DNA of 35,870 nt from Saprospiraceae bacterium. Lineage in GTDB: Bacteria > Bacteroidota > Bacteroidia > Chitinophagales > Saprospiraceae. Below are positions 6,150-19,053 of this stretch, piece by piece (the first letter of the stretch is position 1; every line of letters starts with the position of its first letter). The translations under genes were made by a program, and so were the position numbers. The notes beneath the pieces were generated by a model. That model did not search any database. It was not told where the DNA came from and saw only the letters and a program-made list of their open reading frames with translations. The stretch covers positions 1 to 35,870 of the forward strand of contig JAIYAV010000239.1 of the NCBI GenBank assembly GCA_027488855.1, written 5' to 3'.

Positions 6150-6944
6150 TCACCGCTTCAACAAATTTTCATACGTATCTACTACATAATAGACCACATT
6201 CCCTTCAATGGTTTTACCGTGCTTTTGATTCAGCATTTGTCGGCCAAATTTGTTAAACCCTTGTACGTACACACAAATGGTTTGAGGCGGAATAGACAAA
6301 TCTACCCTTTCAGCGTAGTAGCCATCCAATACCAACAAATTTTGTGTCGCATTTTGATACCGCAGCACTTCATTGCCTTTGGCCATGCGGAAGGGGTCTA
6401 TGGGGAGTGTTGTGCCCAAATAGCCACTATCATCCACTTGCAAATGGGTGTTTCCCTGGGCGTCTATTTCGAAAGGCTTTCCGTCGGGCTGATGATAGGC
6501 GATACAAAACTTACCCCTGAATCCTTCAGGAAGGGTGATGATCGTTTTGGGCTCTTTGGAAAAATCGAGGTCTTCAGGCGTTGCTCCGTCTTTGTAAAAC
6601 AAACGGACTTCGTCGATGCAATCCTCCATTCCTTCCCTGTCCTGGAAGCTGTAATACACCATAAAATTGTGTTCAAGCTGAATCCTTCCACGAAAAAGGC
6701 TGTCTACTTCAATGCCATCATAATAGCCCCCGTCTTTGTGAATGGTGTACTTATAGGTCTTTCCAGAAAACCATTCCATATCAGGATTAAACGAAAAATA
6801 TCCGAGCGAGTCAACCTGAATAAAAAATTCGGGTATGGTGGAGTGGTGCCAACGACCCAGGATGGAGTTGTTTTGGGCAAAAAGTAAAATGCTTTGCAGG
6901 AAGAAAATGAGTACTAAGGCGAGTTTAGTCAATTGCGTAGTCAT
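6150..6944 (-). CDS. secreted protein of unknown function
   Basis: 264 residues with a clear signal peptide (MTTQLTKLALVLIFFLQSILLFA-Q). The mature part is beta-rich and aromatic, beginning with NNSILGRWHHSTIPEFFIQ, a 'lipocalin-like' opening (GxW) seen in many small Bacteroidota exported proteins. A second half follows after about residue 130 (KTIITLPEGFRGKFCIAYHQPDGKP). I do not recognise a family or catalytic motif. It starts 59 bp before the M1 fusion gene on the same strand and could be co-transcribed with it. No lipobox Cys and no T9SS C-terminal domain are seen, so the periplasm is the likely location. Confidence 0.75.
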   Translation of the reverse strand: MTTQLTKLALVLIFFLQSILLFAQNNSILGRWHHSTIPEFFIQVDSLGYFSFNPDMEWFSGKTYKYTIHKDGGYYDGIEVDSLFRGRIQLEHNFMVYYSFQDREGMEDCIDEVRLFYKDGATPEDLDFSKEPKTIITLPEGFRGKFCIAYHQPDGKPFEIDAQGNTHLQVDDSGYLGTTLPIDPFRMAKGNEVLRYQNATQNLLVLDGYYAERVDLSIPPQTICVYVQGFNKFGRQMLNQKHGKTIEGNVVYYVVDTYENLLKR

Positions 6945-7012
6945 AATGAGTTAAGTTTTTTACAAAACAACGTTCGTTTATCTCCCGAAAATTGTGACCA
7001 TTTAAAATTTAA

Positions 7013-7165
7013 AAAGCCTTATTTTATCTGCTCAAAGTGGATTACACAGAAGCTGACCCAGAGATAGCGCAGCAGGGCGTAATAGGTTTGCAAATACACG
7101 GGGGTGGAAAAGCATTGGCATCCTACAAAGATATTTCAATTAGGAAAAAAGCACCGTGGAGATAA
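7013..7165 (+). pseudogene. C-terminal remnant of a DUF1080 (3-keto-disaccharide hydrolase-type) gene
   Basis: A frame of about 50 codons with no start codon of its own ends at TAA 7163-7165. It reads KVDYTEADPEIAQQG, then VIGLQIHGGGKALASYKDIS. That is the usual last strand pair of DUF1080 domains ('..VDYTE.DP....G.I.LQIHGG....v.fkDI.I'). A stop codon (7010-7012) closes the frame upstream, and nothing of the 150-200 residue domain body precedes it. So this is the tail of a deleted or broken gene, not a functional one. Confidence 0.7.
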
Positions 7166-7202
7166 AACAAGATTTAGACAAGCGCTTAAAGCCCAAACGA
7201 AA

Positions 7203-7236
7203 AAAGGCTCCTCAATCAACTGATTAAGAAGCCTTT
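7203..7236 (-). terminator. terminator of tRNA-Asn
   Basis: Read on the minus strand just past the tRNA, AAAGGCT pairs with AGCCTTT. Inner pairing AATCA/TGATT extends the stem, and a T run follows. It fits intrinsic termination of the tRNA transcript. Confidence 0.8.
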
Positions 7237-7245
7237 ATCTTTTTG

Positions 7246-7319
7246 CGCCTCAGGTAGGGCTCGAACCTACGACCTACGGATTAACAGTCCGCCGCTCTAA
7301 CCGGCTGAGCTACTGAGGC
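7246..7319 (-). tRNA. tRNA-Asn (GTT)
   Basis: A 74-nt cloverleaf reads on the minus strand. The acceptor stem is GCCTCAG/CTGAGGC, the D-stem GCTC/GAGC, and the anticodon stem GCGGA/TCCGT with loop CTGTTAA (anticodon GTT). The T-arm is GTAGG TTCGAGC CCTAC and the discriminator base is G. CCA is not encoded. It decodes AAC/AAU; the cognate asnS lies in the same window at 30899. Confidence 0.97.
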
Positions 7320-7417
7320 ACTTGCCGGTGCAATTATCGAATTGCGTGTGCAAATGTATGCCAACTCAAAATAATGTGCAATATTTGCGGCATAATTTTT
7401 TCAAAAAACTTTTCATC

Positions 7418-8344
7418 ATGAGTTTACTTGCGGTTGGAACTGTTGCTTTCGACGACATTGAGACCCCCATGGGCCGGGCAGAAATGGCCATTGGCGGGGC
7501 TGCAACCTACATTACGTTGGCGGCATCTCATTTTTTGAATGACTTGCGCCTGGTGTCGGTCATTGGGGATGATTTCCCGCAAGACATGTTGAATTTTATG
7601 CGCCAAAGAGGAATTGACCTCGAAGGCTTGCAGGTGAAGGCAGGCGAAAAGTCCTTCTTTTGGGCTGGCCGCTACCACAACAACATGAATTCCCGCGATA
7701 CACTGGATACCCAGTTGAACGTACTGGCCGATTTTGACCCCGTTTTGCCGGATGCCTATAAAGATACGGATTACCTGATGTTGGGCAACCTGACACCAGC
7801 GGTACAGTTGCGGGTAATCGAGCAAATGAACAAACGCCCCAAGCTGATCGCCCTCGACACCATGAATTTTTGGATGGATATCGCCTGGGACAGCCTGATG
7901 GAAGTGCTGGGCAAAATCGATATGCTGATCATCAACGATGAAGAAGCCCGCCAATTGTCGGGTGAACATTCACTGGTGAAGGCTGCTCACAAAATTCACG
8001 CCTTGGGCCCACGTTTTTTGGTAATCAAAAAAGGAGAGCATGGTGCACTCCTGTTTGAAGGCGATAAGCTCTTCTTTGCTCCGGCCTTGCCACTCCAAGA
8101 AGTGACCGACCCAACTGGTGCTGGTGATACTTTTGCAGGTGGATTCATGGGCTACATTGCCAAAACCCAGGATACTTCCTTCGAAAATATGAAGCGTGCG
8201 ATCATTTATGGTTCTGCGATGGCTTCTTTCTGCGTAGAGCAATTCAGTGTAAATGCACTCAAATCCCTGGACGCCGCCCAAATCAACGAACGGGTTAAAC
8301 GTTTTGTGGAATTGGTGAATTTTGATCTGGTGATGGAGATTTGA
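7418..8344 (+). CDS. PfkB-family carbohydrate kinase
   Basis: 308 residues of the ribokinase/PfkB fold, cytoplasmic. The N-terminal glycine pair lies in MAIGGAATYITLAAS (sugar-binding strand and lid). The C-terminal PfkB signature is DPTGAGDTFAGGF, with the GAGD anion hole and catalytic base D237. The family phosphorylates a sugar, nucleoside or related hydroxyl with ATP; the substrate is not evident. Annotations of close Bacteroidota homologues as sugar or adenosine kinases would be guesses. The frame is open upstream to 7322, but those residues overlap the tRNA flank and are not protein-like. ATG 7418 gives MSLLAVGTVAFDDIETP, the standard first beta strand. It is monocistronic; a REP-like block follows. 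Confidence 0.9.
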   Translation: MSLLAVGTVAFDDIETPMGRAEMAIGGAATYITLAASHFLNDLRLVSVIGDDFPQDMLNFMRQRGIDLEGLQVKAGEKSFFWAGRYHNNMNSRDTLDTQLNVLADFDPVLPDAYKDTDYLMLGNLTPAVQLRVIEQMNKRPKLIALDTMNFWMDIAWDSLMEVLGKIDMLIINDEEARQLSGEHSLVKAAHKIHALGPRFLVIKKGEHGALLFEGDKLFFAPALPLQEVTDPTGAGDTFAGGFMGYIAKTQDTSFENMKRAIIYGSAMASFCVEQFSVNALKSLDAAQINERVKRFVELVNFDLVMEI

Positions 8345-11873: not shown

Positions 11874-12617
11874 TTACTTCCGGTACATCTTGAGCTTAAG
11901 CAGGCCCACCCGGGTCAAAAAATGCCCAATCGACACCCGCAATACCCCTAAACCATACTTCATACTCCGCCGAAAATTGATCGAAGAAGCCTCTTCAAAG
12001 TATTTGGTGGGGCAGGTCACCTCGGCAATGTCAAAGCCTGCATAGACAATTTGGGAGAGCATTTCGTTGTCAAAAACAAAGTCGTCCGAGTTTTGCTCAA
12101 AATTGATGCCTTCCAGCACCTGGCGACTAAAGGCGCGATACCCGGTGTGGTATTCGGAGAGTTTGTAGTTGATGAGCAGGTTTTGGGAAAAAGTCAAAAA
12201 GCGGTTGGCAATGTATTTGTACATCGGCATTCCTCCCTTGAGTGCGCCCATACCTAGGATGCGAGAGCCCAATACCACGGGATACAACTCGTCCCCAATG
12301 ATGTTGACCATCGAAGGAATCAACAAGGGGGTGTACTGATAATCTGGGTGCAACATGATCACAATATCACCACCCAATTCCAAAGCCTTATTGTACAGGG
12401 TTTTTTGGTTGCCCCCATAGCCCTTGTTTTTTTCGTGTTTGATCACGTGCTGAATGCCAATGCTGCGGGCCAGTTCGGCGGTATTGTCTTTGCTGGCGTC
12501 GTCGCAAAGAATGACCTCATCTACCAGGTCAAAAGGAATCTCCTGATAGGTTTTTTCCAGGGTGCGGGCGGCGTTGTAAGCCGGAAGGACGACGATGACT
12601 TTTTTGCCTTTGTACAT
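11874..12617 (-). CDS. family 2 glycosyltransferase (dolichol-phosphate mannosyltransferase-like)
   Basis: 247-codon frame giving a GT-A fold enzyme: VIVVLPAYNAARTL, first acidic pair at D39-D40 (LCDDASKDNT), GYGGNQKTLYNKAL, and HPDYQY at 90-95 in the usual DxD position. No transmembrane helices are evident, so it is probably a peripheral enzyme like Dpm1. It transfers a sugar from NDP-sugar to a polyprenyl phosphate or lipid acceptor. An in-frame start at 12698 would add 27 residues of poor quality; ATG 12617 gives MYKGKKVIVVLPAYN. The metal motif, with His-Pro in front of the Asp, is slightly unusual but common in this subgroup. Confidence 0.88.
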   Translation of the reverse strand: MYKGKKVIVVLPAYNAARTLEKTYQEIPFDLVDEVILCDDASKDNTAELARSIGIQHVIKHEKNKGYGGNQKTLYNKALELGGDIVIMLHPDYQYTPLLIPSMVNIIGDELYPVVLGSRILGMGALKGGMPMYKYIANRFLTFSQNLLINYKLSEYHTGYRAFSRQVLEGINFEQNSDDFVFDNEMLSQIVYAGFDIAEVTCPTKYFEEASSINFRRSMKYGLGVLRVSIGHFLTRVGLLKLKMYRK

Positions 12618-12691
12618 GCTTGCTTGGATTTCGGGGGCGAAGATAGGGAAAAGGATCGGCCTAGTGATTGAGGAAGAACAATATTTTAGCG

Positions 12692-13189
12692 TTAACAAGC
12701 TTCAATTTTGTAGTCCGATTGTGTTGCTATAATTGGATGATTAGCATCTTGAAATCGGACTGATCGACTGATCAATGATTTGAATTTAAATGTTTTATCC
12801 CTGTTTAAATCAATGTTGGAAATAAAAAGCAACTGTACTTTTTTGAATTTTACAGATAATACCTCTCCGAATTTATTCACAATGAAGTCATTTAAGCAGG
12901 TCTCGAACTTCGCTGCTAACTTGTCAACTTTGAACCCTCTTAACTTTGTAGCTTTTTTTAATTCGACTACAATCAAAGAATATTCTCCATCACCACATTT
13001 TAGGATAACCAGGCAATCTGGAGTGGATGGACGATCATGAATAATTGGTCGGTAGTATTCATCAATATTTAGAATGACATAATCTTCTCTGTGGATTGAT
13101 TCGGAAAAAGCAATACAAACTCCATTCTCCTCGCATTCGTCTCTAAGTAACGTACTTAATTGAGGGTCTTTTTTAATCTTATCAATCAT
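12692..13189 (-). CDS. PD-(D/E)xK nuclease-like protein, partner of an ATPase
   Basis: 165 residues, soluble. I do not recognise a named family, but the core reads TPDCLVI, then 17 residues after D58, VVELKKA: P57-D58 ... E76-L77-K78, a textbook PD-(D/E)xK active site on adjacent beta strands. Helices follow (FKVDKLAAKFETCLNDFI) and another strand pair (VQLLFISNID). The start ATG overlaps the ATPase stop as ATGA (13186-13189), so the two proteins are translationally coupled. It is AT-rich compared with flanking genes. Inference: the nuclease effector of a two-gene defence module. It could also be an inactive regulator. Confidence 0.7.
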   Translation of the reverse strand: MIDKIKKDPQLSTLLRDECEENGVCIAFSESIHREDYVILNIDEYYRPIIHDRPSTPDCLVILKCGDGEYSLIVVELKKATKLRGFKVDKLAAKFETCLNDFIVNKFGEVLSVKFKKVQLLFISNIDLNRDKTFKFKSLISRSVRFQDANHPIIATQSDYKIEAC

Positions 13190-14631
13190 ACTGCACTGTT
13201 CTGCCGTTCAAGGATTTCAATCCGTTCTTCGTAGAGTTTTTCGGCACTTTTTGAGAAGTTCTCATCCATCATGCCATCTTCTGTCGATCGAACTTCAGGG
13301 TTGGCAATACTGCCATAAGCAGACTTAATGAGGTGATAAGCACCAACCAATTTATAATCAATTTTATGATCCAAAATCATATTATTCAGCATATGAAACA
13401 TATAGTCACTGTGAGAAGTCAACACTACCTTAATGTCAAAATCAATTAGTTTGGCGATTATCTCCATTAATTTGATCTGTAGTTGCGGATGAACGTGCGC
13501 CTCAGGTTCTTCGATAAACAAAACACTCTTTCTTACATTAGGCAAAATTGGTGCTTCGTTGAACTCTTCTGAAGGTTGGTTTGAAACAATATGCCTTAAG
13601 AAGAGTACAATCGGCGCTAATTCCATAACCATTGAGGATGAATCTGCCAAAGTAAGCTTTAGCGAGTCTGCCTCATTGGGACGAAACCATATCAAGTTGT
13701 TATCCCTATCGTATTGAATTCTACCTTGAATAATGTGTTTTTCTAGCTCTGATGTAATCCAATACTCTAAATTGGAATTGATAGTCAAGGCGTTTACTCC
13801 AGACAAGCGAATGAAATAATCTGATAAAGGTTCCGCTAATGCAGGGATTTCCAATGTAAGATTGGGCAACAAATCTCTATTTTGAGAAAGTGCTACAATG
13901 GCTGGGCTCAAAGCTTTTAGCCCCTGATAAAGTCCAGATCGTGAAGCGGGCAAAAACAATAATTCTCGGTGATGGTCTCTGAATATCCCCTGCAAGTCAA
14001 TATAATAAACCCTTAAACAGCTAAGTATCTCCATCCAAAACAGGTCAAAGCCATCTTTAGGTACATAATTATATGATGGAATGGCTCGTTTTTGCTCGTT
14101 GACATAAATGGGGAATTCAAGTTTGTTCTTACTCCCTCCATAAACAGTGATTTTATCCTTGATTTTACAAGAGTTTAAAAAAGCCACTCCTTGTTCATTT
14201 GACGCGATCAGAATCTCAAAGTCGTTATTCTCAATTTTTATTGAATAGGGCTGTTTTGAAAACTGGTTGATCGTATTGGATAAACTTGAGAAAGTGTTGG
14301 TCAGTGATTTGTTCAAATTTGGTATAAATACTTTTGAAAGTGCTATTTTTAAGATATTGCCAAAGTCTTCTGATAAATCAATAAATTCTTTTGTAGAAAA
14401 AGATTGAAGTCGCACATAATGTTCTTCGGCTTTCACTCGAATTAATTCGCTCAGGTCAGTATCATTTAAGTTTGCTAAAGGTGAACGATCTATATTCTTT
14501 AACACACAATACAAACAATAACACGCATACGATTTCCCCACTCCATTCTCCCCAATGATAAAATGTAAGTCCTTGTTCAAATCAAAGGTAAAAGACTCAA
14601 TTGGCCCAAAATTTTTGATTTCTACGATCAT
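13186..14631 (-). CDS. AAA/ABC-type ATPase (OLD/RecF-like), candidate defence sensor
   Basis: 481 residues. Walker A GENGVGKS at 27-34 follows the usual 'IKNFGPIESF' first strands. A long helical insert (about 50-330) contains FLPASRSGLYQG (226-237), a motif common in AAA_15/AAA_21 proteins. A weak signature-like region (DSSSMVMELAP) lies near 330, Walker B VLFIEEPEA at 370-378 (E374/E375) and the H-switch TSHSDY with H407. There is no TOPRIM domain at the C-terminus, so it is not a full OLD nuclease. It overlaps the PD-(D/E)xK gene by 4 nt. The layout matches two-gene anti-phage ATPase/nuclease systems, but I cannot assign it to a named one. AT-rich composition suggests transfer. Confidence 0.85.
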   Translation of the reverse strand: MIVEIKNFGPIESFTFDLNKDLHFIIGENGVGKSYACYCLYCVLKNIDRSPLANLNDTDLSELIRVKAEEHYVRLQSFSTKEFIDLSEDFGNILKIALSKVFIPNLNKSLTNTFSSLSNTINQFSKQPYSIKIENNDFEILIASNEQGVAFLNSCKIKDKITVYGGSKNKLEFPIYVNEQKRAIPSYNYVPKDGFDLFWMEILSCLRVYYIDLQGIFRDHHRELLFLPASRSGLYQGLKALSPAIVALSQNRDLLPNLTLEIPALAEPLSDYFIRLSGVNALTINSNLEYWITSELEKHIIQGRIQYDRDNNLIWFRPNEADSLKLTLADSSSMVMELAPIVLFLRHIVSNQPSEEFNEAPILPNVRKSVLFIEEPEAHVHPQLQIKLMEIIAKLIDFDIKVVLTSHSDYMFHMLNNMILDHKIDYKLVGAYHLIKSAYGSIANPEVRSTEDGMMDENFSKSAEKLYEERIEILERQNSAV

Positions 14632-14756
14632 CTGCCAAAATTATAAGGAACGATTAAAGAAACTCAAGATAACAAAAATAGCCCATACCTGCTTAGGATG
14701 CAAGACTTCCGGCTTTTTACTACCTTGCCCCTCGGTTTTTAATTCAAGTAAACGTT

Positions 14757-15308
14757 ATGCAACCCAAACCCGTTTCCCTCTCCCGCACCACCATCACCGA
14801 ACTGATGATTCCTGCCTACGCCAATTTCGGCGGCAAAATCCACGGGGGCATTCTACTCTCCCTCATGGACAAAGTAGCCTACGCATGCGCGGCCAAACAC
14901 GCGGGTGCTTACGTAGTCACCGTATCCGTGGATGGGGTGAATTTTCGGGAGCCCGTTTCGGTTGGGGAGTTGGTGTCCCTACACGCCTCGGTCAACTATG
15001 TGGGGCGTACCTCATTGGTAGTAGGCATTCGCGTGGAATCGGAGAATGTGATCACGGGCGAAAAAAAGCACACCAATACCTCCTATTTCACCATGGTCGC
15101 CAAAGATGCCGAAGGGAAATTGTGTGTGGTGCCGCCCTTAGCACTGGAAGATGACGAAGACATCCGGCGTTGCCTGGAATCCATCAAACGCAAACGGCTG
15201 AAGGAGGCTTTTAGCGATGAGTTCGACAATGAAAAAAACCGCCTGGACTTGGAGGATAACTTGCATTTGTTGAAAAAAGAACGGGTAGAGCTGCCAAGGA
15301 AAAATTGA
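14757..15308 (+). CDS. acyl-CoA thioesterase, hotdog fold
   Basis: 183 residues. The hotdog helix motif FGGKIHGGILLSLMDKVAY (24-42) is the acyl-CoA thioesterase signature of the YciA/ACOT group, with VDGVNFREPV as the following strand. It hydrolyses acyl-CoA to free acid and CoA in the cytoplasm; chain length is unknown. The last 50 residues are a charged tail beyond the usual 130-140 residue domain. It diverges from the ATPase across a 125-bp gap. TACCTTGC at 14720-14727 is a near match to the -7 consensus and could be its promoter. Confidence 0.9.
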   Translation: MQPKPVSLSRTTITELMIPAYANFGGKIHGGILLSLMDKVAYACAAKHAGAYVVTVSVDGVNFREPVSVGELVSLHASVNYVGRTSLVVGIRVESENVITGEKKHTNTSYFTMVAKDAEGKLCVVPPLALEDDEDIRRCLESIKRKRLKEAFSDEFDNEKNRLDLEDNLHLLKKERVELPRKN

Positions 15309-16875: not shown

Positions 16876-18126
16876 ATGTTTAGACTGAATAGGATTATAA
16901 TCAATGGGTTTAAAGACCCGAACCGTGTAGTGGATTTAGCGTTTGCGGAGGGGCCAATAACTGTAATTTATGGTGAAAATGGTTCTGGTAAGACAACTTT
17001 GTTGAAAGTTTTACAAGCAGTACTTAGCATTGATAGCTCTCAATTGAGAAAAGAGAAAATTTCTTCTTGTACGCTGAAATTTCAAGATAAACTAGGCAAT
17101 GTTTTAATTCAGACGCTAGAGATTTCAGGGAAGGAGATAAAGACAAAAGCAGAAATTGATTTGAATGGACAAACAACAATACTACCTTATCAAGGATATA
17201 AAGAAATTACTGAATCGGTAACCTCAATATTATTTGGGCTTAATAGAGGCGGGCATGATCTGAGACTGCAAATAATGGATTTGATCAATCAAGATTTAAT
17301 CCAACTTAAAAAACATGTATTAGAAGAAGGTTTAAAGACGATAGATAATCTAATCCTACTTACGACGAAGGTCGATCACAGTAATGACGAGTTAATAAGA
17401 AAAAATCAGCATCTCACTTTAGATGATTTATCTGTTGCAACTATTGAAAAGGCACTTAAAACCGCATATGATAAGGGCCACACAGCTGTACTTACGGGAA
17501 TGAGCAATGCTTTTTTTGCAACCATAGATAATGCCATTAATTTCAATGGTGGAGCCAGTTTATCTAATGATTTCCAATCAAGATTTAATAAACAAAAAAG
17601 ATTTTTTCTTTCATTTGTTGAAAACCTTGATGAGTCTAATACAAAAAAAAGGCTCAAAGATGTATTGAATAAAGAGGCTCCTGATCTTAGTCAAGAGAGC
17701 TCCATATTTAAGGCTTTGCTTGGCAATCTTTTGATTAAAGCAGAACAAGATGAAAGAGAAAATCTCGATTTGAAAGCTATCAATCGAATTGTTGAAATTT
17801 TTAACGATTTTGTTATTTTCGATAAAAGGTTGATAGTTAATTCTGTAGAAACTTACATTGAACTAAATGACGGCCAACGTCACGAACTCAAAGATCTTTC
17901 CAGTGGAGAGCGGCACTTACTAAGCTTCCTGACACTCTTTCTAATCCTGGGACGTGATCGAAACATCTTTCTAATTGACGAACCAGAAATTTCCATGTCC
18001 ATTAAATGGCAAAGAAAATTATTGGACTTGCTCTCTGAATTCTCCCCTCAAGCTCAAATCATCGTTGCCACCCATAGCCCTTCAATAGCTGATGGTCATA
18101 CCGAATATTTAAAAGAATTGGTTTAG
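16876..18126 (+). CDS. AAA_15-type ATPase, PARIS AriA-like
   Basis: 416 residues with an ABC/SMC-type split ATPase: Walker A GENGSGKTT at 33-41, signature LSSGERHL from 341, Walker B FLIDEPE at 365-371, H-switch H400 (VATHSPSIADG). The middle (about 110-330) is helical. Four bases after its stop the DUF4435/TOPRIM gene begins. This pairing and both lengths match the PARIS anti-phage system, in which an AriA ATPase scaffold holds the AriB nuclease and releases it on sensing phage anti-restriction proteins. Assignment to PARIS is inference from architecture; other ATPase/DUF4435 pairs exist. AT-rich, unlike the permease before it and the PLP enzyme after the pair. Confidence 0.85.
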   Translation: MFRLNRIIINGFKDPNRVVDLAFAEGPITVIYGENGSGKTTLLKVLQAVLSIDSSQLRKEKISSCTLKFQDKLGNVLIQTLEISGKEIKTKAEIDLNGQTTILPYQGYKEITESVTSILFGLNRGGHDLRLQIMDLINQDLIQLKKHVLEEGLKTIDNLILLTTKVDHSNDELIRKNQHLTLDDLSVATIEKALKTAYDKGHTAVLTGMSNAFFATIDNAINFNGGASLSNDFQSRFNKQKRFFLSFVENLDESNTKKRLKDVLNKEAPDLSQESSIFKALLGNLLIKAEQDERENLDLKAINRIVEIFNDFVIFDKRLIVNSVETYIELNDGQRHELKDLSSGERHLLSFLTLFLILGRDRNIFLIDEPEISMSIKWQRKLLDLLSEFSPQAQIIVATHSPSIADGHTEYLKELV

Positions 18127-18129
18127 GAT

Positions 18130-19053
18130 ATGGAATTCAAAGTTCGATTGATAGACAGGCTTGTTGAAGCAAGAATAGTTAAAGAACCCTTTATCATTGT
18201 TGAGGGCAAGGATGATCGTCAGATTTATTCAAGACTAGTCAATGAGATAAACAAAGAAGCAAAAGTTCACGCTGTTGCGGAATTCGAAGACTTCCATGCT
18301 GGATGCGAAAATGTTATTCAGTGCATGGAACAATTGCAGCAGAAATTGATCAATGACCCAATTAATCAGCGCTTTGTACTAGGAATCATTGATCGGGATA
18401 GTAGACCATTCAAAGGTGGTGCTAGCTTAGCTGAACTGCTCAACCTGTATATCCTCAGACACTACTCTATCGAGACATATTTTGCTACCTCTTTAAACCT
18501 TTCCCGGCTTATTGAAAAAAGCACTTATGCCACTTTAGAAGATGTTGATCAAGAAATCATTGCCTTTGTTTTAGCGAATGTTCCTGAATCCTTTTCCACC
18601 TTGTATTATATTTCCTTGGATGCATTGAAACAAGAATGTTTAGGACTGGATACCTATAAAGCTTCAGTCGCTTATGGCGATGATGATACTGGAAGCAAAG
18701 TTTCAAGGCAATTTCGGGAGCACTTTGAGCAAAATGTGTTGCCAGAGCGACAAGCAGATCTGGATCTTTTTGCACTGGATAAAGAGATCACTATCGATGA
18801 CCTTAAACTCATCGCCAAAGGCAAATGGTACTTGTATAACTACCTTTATCGGGCAGGTTTTCACATCAAGAAATTGCATGAAAAATGTTTGGCCAATGAG
18901 TTGCGATCAGGGCGTCACTATGGCGATATTTTCAAGTTGCGGATTGAGCGCAACCCGGATCAGCTTGTTGATATTTTTTACCAAGACATTCTCCAATTCA
19001 TCGACCACGAAGAATGCAGTGACATCGTCGAAGCCATCAATTCGTTAGCCTAA
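18130..19053 (+). CDS. DUF4435/TOPRIM protein, PARIS AriB-like effector
   Basis: 307 residues. TOPRIM motifs are clear: FIIVEGKDDRQIYSRL (E25, D28, D29) and LGIIDRDSR (D88, D90). HYSIETYFAT (E115) then fits the conserved E-x-Y of DUF4435. Predicted to be a metal-dependent nuclease; the AriB of PARIS cleaves host tRNA and stops growth. The gap to the ATPase is 3 bases, so they are co-expressed. The C-terminal half (190-307) is less AT-rich and helical. A small imperfect hairpin (GGGCAA / TTGCCC at 19080-19101) follows the stop but lacks a T run. Confidence 0.85.
   Translation: MEFKVRLIDRLVEARIVKEPFIIVEGKDDRQIYSRLVNEINKEAKVHAVAEFEDFHAGCENVIQCMEQLQQKLINDPINQRFVLGIIDRDSRPFKGGASLAELLNLYILRHYSIETYFATSLNLSRLIEKSTYATLEDVDQEIIAFVLANVPESFSTLYYISLDALKQECLGLDTYKASVAYGDDDTGSKVSRQFREHFEQNVLPERQADLDLFALDKEITIDDLKLIAKGKWYLYNYLYRAGFHIKKLHEKCLANELRSGRHYGDIFKLRIERNPDQLVDIFYQDILQFIDHEECSDIVEAINSLA

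Follow-up and report, generated by a model that had tools for sequence, protein, structure and literature searches.

The window analysed here, that is, the whole stretch of 35,870 nucleotides from a Saprospiraceae bacterium, carries on its minus strand two open reading frames of 481 and 165 amino acids, which a preliminary description of this DNA had placed at 12692-14631 and proposed as an ATPase coupled to a compact nuclease. These coordinates proved exact, and the locus comprises the following features:

13186..14631, minus strand: OLD-type ABC ATPase gene, 481 aa, no TOPRIM (open reading frame, Pfam, motifs; Foldseek to PtuA of retron and Septu systems)
12692..13189, minus strand: predicted PD-(D/E)xK nuclease gene, 165 aa, with D58, E76-x-K78, K94-F95 and F102 (open reading frame, alignment, AlphaFold2, Foldseek)
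13186..13189, minus strand: ATGA stop-start overlap of the ATPase and nuclease genes (ends of the reading frames)
12647..14754, no strand: accessory segment of 2108 bp, which replaces an unrelated 90-bp intergenic stretch of genome G674
11874..12617, minus strand: left flank, family-2 glycosyltransferase, from its likely ATG (Pfam; syntenic in G674)
14757..15308, plus strand: right flank, 4HBT thioesterase (Pfam; syntenic in G674)

The ATGA overlap, confirmed from the ends of the two frames, joins the TGA stop of the ATPase gene to the ATG start of the nuclease gene, with four bases common to both, an arrangement by which the two genes are likely translationally coupled. The AT-richness and the ordinary metabolic neighbours reported earlier were also recovered: the GC content is 36.5% in the ATPase gene and 33.5% in the nuclease gene against 46.1% in the whole window, and Pfam assigns the flanking genes to a family-2 glycosyltransferase and a 4HBT thioesterase, beyond which, on the right side, lies an amino-acid permease.

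The 481-aa protein contains G27-N29-G32-K33-S34, E374/E375, H407 and S333-M334, which we take to be its Walker A motif, Walker B motif, H-switch and OLD-type signature, respectively. Across 31 aligned pairs of ATPase and nuclease, described below, G27, G32, K33, S34, P228, R231, G233, S333, M334, E374, E375, P376, E377, H379, H407, S408, N458, F459 and E469 are each invariant (31/31), N29 is kept in 29, and the C-terminal tail G453..D456-N458-F459..E469 is conserved. A Pfam search of this protein returned AAA_15, AAA_21 and AAA_23 above the cut-off and no TOPRIM, in agreement with the initial reading of Walker A, Walker B and H-switch motifs in an ATPase lacking that domain. Its predicted model (pLDDT, 80.9; pTM, 0.85) retrieved with Foldseek PtuA of retron and Septu systems, with a best E value of 7.6e-10 and a poor global superposition.

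In the nuclease, D58 and E76 are present in 31 and K78 in 30 of the 31 aligned pairs, the L020 protein having R in place of K78, and K94, F95 and F102 are each found in all 31. P57 is conserved in only 8 of them and is therefore deemed incidental, so that of the motif first proposed, P57-D58 followed by E76-x-K78, the D58, E76 and K78 residues stand and P57 does not. In the AlphaFold2 model, built on a 22-row alignment (mean pLDDT, 89.4; pTM, 0.86), D58 lies just ahead of a strand spanning 59-64, E76 and K78 close the strand 70-78, and a long helix, 88-106, follows and bears K94-F95. The structural search that had been suggested for the 165-aa protein did find type II restriction enzymes, the best PDB matches including EcoO109I (E value, 0.0087; probability, 0.87), SgrAI, Bse634I, FokI and BspD6I, at weak scores (TM, 0.34 and about 0.35); in neither PDB nor BFVD did any match reach an E value of 0.001 or lower, and BFVD gave nothing clear. 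Since the invariant motif joins these weak fold matches, we regard the prediction of a PD-(D/E)xK nuclease, as made in the preliminary description, as sound. Pfam retrieved nothing above its cut-off for this protein, the best sub-threshold match being a TnsA-like endonuclease (E value, 0.0021); a reading as a TnsA or transposon component was dropped because the segment has only two genes.

Four cysteines, namely, C19, C59 (beside the catalytic D58), C65 and C165, are all present in 19 of the 31 nucleases. They are mostly kept or lost jointly and are found in most chromosomal members; C19 and C59 occur together in 20 nucleases, and both are missing in the other 11, which belong to Bacillota and to viral contigs. 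This joint pattern could reflect either a metal or redox site or shared descent.

Relatives of the pair were collected from both of its sides. A nuclease search of 298 genomes of the same order gave matches in seven at an E value of ≤0.01, five of them strong and the window's genome included, and an alignment of the five nucleases led to 21 loci in the genome collection, mostly from Bacteroidota, with two from Deltaproteobacteria, three from Lachnospiraceae/Eubacterium and one from a Helicobacter-labelled metagenome-assembled genome (MAG). Among 395 genomes of the phylum, the nuclease profile matched at least seven at an E value of ≤0.01, five strongly, including the window's own, and the ATPase-side search detected at least five close relatives; these counts are lower bounds, as the best nine nuclease and the best four ATPase candidates per genome were scored. 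Thirty of 31 profile-matched frames exceeded 100 bits, and all 30 sit immediately downstream of an ATPase of the same family; they correspond to 25 distinct loci, since L003, L004, L005, L006 and L030 duplicate others. A search of viral contigs with the ATPase returned 34 loci, of which the eight close ones (L060 to L067) raise the number of distinct loci with the pair to 33, labelled as Bacteroidota, Deltaproteobacteria, Helicobacter, Bacillota and, for these eight, viral contigs. Because the pair is repeated at 33 distinct loci, chance pairing is ruled out. The preliminary description had held that homologous ATPases lacking the small partner would speak against its proposal; among the close relatives of the clade we encountered none, the nuclease being present in five of five from the 395 Bacteroidota genomes (best four candidates of each) and in eight of eight from viral contigs. 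Other searches were negative within their scope: a close-homologue scan of genome contigs with the nuclease alone found nothing, tblastn with the nuclease gave no match in plasmids (E limit, 0.01) or phages (E limit, 0.1), and alignment A1 had no match in the viral contigs. The candidates L002 (E value, 0.099), L007 and L008 (0.007 to 0.01), L034 (5e-4), L035 (0.003; 19.6 bits) and L036 were dropped as noise.

The counts over 31 pairs given throughout omit L025, whose ATPase is cut by the contig end, and L023, in which the frame of the ATPase is split in two. The latter locus (6592-8011) lies in the Deltaproteobacteria MAG of L022, where it duplicates the pair, and its split ATPase reflects either decay or a sequencing error. 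In 29 other pairs, the nuclease frame has its first start codon within a range from 107 bases upstream to 7 bases downstream of the point where the ATPase gene ends, and the nuclease frames of the clade measure 165 to 204 aa. The ATPases of the 31 pairs have a mean identity of 36% and the nucleases one of 33%, and the pairwise distances of the two proteins correlate with an r of 0.88, a value that is descriptive because the rows are related, and thus not independent, and have no control pair. Outside the clade, at least 14 remoter Bacteroidota ATPase matches were recorded, 10 of 14 having an adjacent downstream frame of more than 80 aa; L048 has an overlapping 209-aa frame, L055 an overlapping frame that resembles the L050 partner and starts outside the distance rule of this count, L057 only a 64-aa frame downstream and L058 no partner.

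Comparison with genome G674, of the same genus, reveals an empty site. Its glycosyltransferase (C249:4606-5346) and thioesterase (C249:5468-6013) lie 121 bp apart without the cassette, and the identity of about 90% between the window and G674 ends at 12646 and restarts at 14755. The 90 bp that G674 has in between admit no sensible alignment to the 2108 bp of the window. Together with the constant pairing, this empty site corroborates a conserved accessory cassette. The nuclease profile matched none of the four other genomes of the genus at an E value of ≤0.01, and the reading frames of the segment amount to the two genes, with no integrase; as to how the cassette arrived, our guess is that recombination within the genes on either side exchanged the segment. 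A separate module lies 2.2 kb from the cassette, at 16876-19053 on the plus strand, and is PARIS-like: it consists of a 416-aa ATPase (PADLOC AriA; E value, 1.2e-30) and a 307-aa DUF4435 protein (AriB; 7.6e-14), whose genes are 3 bp apart with a GC content of 37%. This module is absent from genome G182, where its flanking sequences are about 150 bp apart, and its DUF4435 protein has no match in any of the genus's four other genomes. From the empty sites of G674 and G182 it follows that the thioesterase-permease pair is flanked by two accessory defence-like insertions.

As to a location of the homologues in defence islands, a question also raised at the outset, methylases and phage genes occur at some loci; as judged by eye from the starts of the reading frames, the surroundings of most relatives on chromosomes are ordinary genes. 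A phage integrase is encoded just upstream of L062 and a phage tail-fibre gene near L066; a relaxase, an N6/N4 methylase and a BglII-like endonuclease are found beside the L011 pair, a C5 methylase near both L028 and L063 and another AAA_15 ATPase near L018. The ten neighbours considered were picked out by eye for a likely role in mobility or defence, and two gave no match; we treat this uncontrolled evidence as supportive.

We then asked how far existing models recognise the clade. The 165-aa nuclease of the window has no match in PADLOC, NCBIfam or PHROGs. For 22 nucleases of the clade, NCBIfam gave no match (0/22), PADLOC one match each to SduA, PDC-M47B and Cas11f (E values, 0.0003 to 0.007) and Pfam matches to 12 families with one or two members each (E values, 0.002 to 0.08), while, of two further nucleases from viral contigs, that of L060 matched PD-T4-4_B (0.0043) and that of L062 a PHROG of unknown function (0.0061). 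Such weak, scattered matches mean that no model of PADLOC 2023, Pfam, NCBIfam or PHROGs clearly recognises the nuclease of this clade. PADLOC does name other branches, assigning both genes of L037 and the nuclease of L039 to PD-T4-4 and both genes of L038 to PDC-M47. In a 55-row ATPase tree, obtained by a quick method that issued long-branch warnings, the window falls in clade I (26 rows; SH-aLRT, 100); outside it, the PD-T4-4-like and PDC-M47-like rows group with the Enterococcus rows (99), and the WonA-like rows stand by themselves (99).

In the literature consulted, the nearest tested system with a studied target is WonAB of a Vibrio WASA-1 prophage, whose OLD-ABC ATPase and PD-(D/E)xK nuclease are both needed for protection according to the available excerpts of PMC12137116. 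In these excerpts, WonA K34, R182, E300 and H333 and WonB K71 are each required for protection, chromosomal DNA stays intact while translation halts, WonB is toxic only alongside working WonA, and a model in which the ATPase senses and the nuclease acts is proposed from genetics; PD-T4-4 and a group found in silico, "OLD-ABC ATPase + Novel REase," are called relatives of WonAB (PMC12137116). According to excerpts of PMC12839542, BREX and related systems include OLD-ABC ATPases that are paired with nucleases of the PD-(D/E)xK, HNH and PIN types. With WonAB, as excerpted, the window's clade shares the organisation of genes for an OLD-type ABC ATPase and a small PD-(D/E)xK nuclease in one operon, a conserved C-terminal ATPase tail and likely counterparts of the required residues, namely, K33, R231, E375 and H407 (31/31) and K78 (30/31), assigned by motif and not by alignment; a difference is in nuclease size, WonB having 16.1 kDa (about 145 aa) and the nuclease frames of the clade 165 to 204 aa (PMC12137116). 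Three loci, L112, L115 and L116, are called WonA-like here by residue numbering and size, and not by the WonAB sequences. The numbering of K33, R180-183, the Walker B glutamate pair (296-305) and H332-338 in their ATPases is near that of WonA K34, R182, E300 and H333, and the 145-aa L112 nuclease has its lysine at position 71. Their ATPases read EEPEAHLFP where the window's clade reads EEPEAHxHP, and the quick tree sets these WonA-like rows, which are not WonA itself, apart from clade I.

PD-T4-4 likewise combines an ATPase and a PD-(D/E)xK nuclease (excerpts of PMC9519451, PMC10952713 and PMC12137116). The ATPase profile of a PD-T4-4-like set (L037, L118 and L120) aligns with that of the clade over nearly its full length at an E value of 4.7e-22, compared with 1.1e-15 for the WonA-like set, both being clear matches, and differs from that of the clade by a Walker B of DEPELNLHP and by ERTG where the clade has SRSG. 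The window ATPase has partial matches to PD-T4-4_A, the best at 294-420, and its nuclease none to PD-T4-4_B; in contrast, L037 matches PD-T4-4_A over its full length (6e-185). The PADLOC candidate PDC-M47 has the same architecture, but its ATPase clade is separate and only one of 22 relatives matches PDC-M47B (0.0025); in the window, PDC-M47A covers 298-420 at best and PDC-M47B does not match the nuclease. Profile comparison of the nucleases is marginal, with E values of 0.071 against the WonB-like set (three rows), 0.019 against the PD-T4-4_B-like set and 0.0063 against the PDC-M47B-like/Enterococcus set, whose three rows, two of them PDC-M47-like and the third from Enterococcus, aligned on IKxD...D...ExK, the hhalign probabilities for these sets being 0.8 to 6%. 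To the "Novel REase" group, whose exemplar is from Anaerovibrio, the pair can be likened by description alone (excerpts of PMC12137116 and PMC12409358).

More distantly, the ATPase shares its superfamily with those of PARIS, Septu, Gabija and OLD. The partners in these systems are a TOPRIM/DUF4435 protein, an HNH nuclease or a TOPRIM fusion with or without a helicase. These partner types are in part given in excerpts of PMC12839542. The window nuclease matches neither the AriB type (DUF4435) of PARIS nor the HNH protein PtuB of Septu, and an ATPase of 481 aa without TOPRIM next to a 165-aa partner does not correspond to Gabija or OLD. ATPase motifs without TOPRIM and a D/ExK nuclease encoded directly downstream do correspond to the broad kind of OLD-ABC ATPase with a small PD-(D/E)xK nuclease. 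The pair is thus of the same kind as WonAB and PD-T4-4, and not a demonstrated member of a named system; PADLOC run on it did not yield the perfect match to a described system that would have counted against the original proposal. The statement that this pairing matched no nameable system needs qualification, as its logic is known from WonAB, PD-T4-4 and the "Novel REase" group (excerpts of PMC12137116), although it does hold for the libraries searched, in which the nuclease of the clade has no clear model.

On these grounds, we predict that the two-gene cassette is an anti-phage defence made of a sensor ATPase and a nuclease, with a probability of about 80%, judging from sequence, structural models and analogy. 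By analogy with WonAB, the OLD-type ABC ATPase would dimerise upon ATP and detect a cue of infection; its conserved C-terminal tail would hold the nuclease and switch it on, in a complex such as WonAB suggests, and the nuclease, supplied by the coupled second gene, would cut nucleic acid and stop the infection. The preliminary description had the ATPase sense a phage signal and release or activate the nuclease; sensing and activation agree with the model proposed for WonAB (excerpts of PMC12137116), whereas release is less likely than joint action of the two proteins, because WonB needs a working ATPase to be toxic. The outcome is probably abortive, with killing or arrest of the cell, for example by the cutting of tRNA or rRNA suspected for WonB, being more probable than site-specific cutting of phage DNA.

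It is unlikely, if worth serious consideration, that the cassette instead acts in restriction, with a nuclease that cuts invading DNA once the ATPase has marked it, by its ends, modified bases or replication intermediates, and with a host that survives. Type II restriction enzymes are the best matches of the nuclease model, the L011 relative adjoins a methylase and a BglII-like nuclease, and the weak Pfam match to a TnsA-like endonuclease under the cut-off points the same way; the cassette, however, has no methylase, and in WonAB chromosomal DNA remains intact and translation halts (excerpts of PMC12137116). Within the defence reading, we give a low chance to clade I being a separate type of defence, distinct in both trigger and target, in which the cysteines could form a metal or redox site, absent from the Bacillota and viral-contig members, for the tuning of the nuclease. 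A toxin-antitoxin function, with the ATPase as a simple antitoxin to a toxic nuclease and a role in addiction or stress and not in phage defence, would suit an overlapping gene pair with one small nuclease whose presence varies within the genus, yet the first gene encodes the larger, ATP-binding protein, whose catalytic set, needless for a mere antitoxin, is kept in 31 of 31; for WonAB, the need of WonB toxicity for working WonA was counted against such a model (excerpts of PMC12137116), and we consider it improbable here. Least probable is a housekeeping DNA-repair pair akin to RecF/Rad50-type ATPases: the ATPase has an SMC/RecF-type fold, but the four other genomes of the genus have no match, strong matches are patchy (5 in 298 genomes of the order, the window's included), the genes are AT-rich and viral contigs carry the pair.

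Read as a sensor-ATPase/nuclease defence, the cassette would extend the young family of WonAB and PD-T4-4 to a clade present in several phyla. As this clade is missed by PADLOC 2023, Pfam, NCBIfam and PHROGs, current counts of defences of this type are probably too low, most of all for Bacteroidota. The set of 33 loci offers material for a detection model and for residue-level tests, and the clade a comparison set for which regions of the ATPase choose the trigger.

Further branches of the ATPase were noted along the way. The loci L046 to L051, L055, L056 and L058 represent additional Bacteroidota branches with ATPases of 507 to 542 aa, six of the nine having adjacent partners of 150 to 183 aa with a D and an ExK motif. 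Genome G553 holds at least four ATPase matches, and L053 and L054 encode 359-aa ATPases, each with a 294-aa downstream partner. In viral contigs, L071 to L074 and L092 form a separate ATPase branch of 467 to 492 aa (five rows; tree support, 100). For L073, PADLOC returned no match to the partner at an E value of ≤0.01 and none to the ATPase at ≤1e-30. The downstream proteins of L072 to L074 and L092 measure 208 to 212 aa and contain an ELK or EMK motif.
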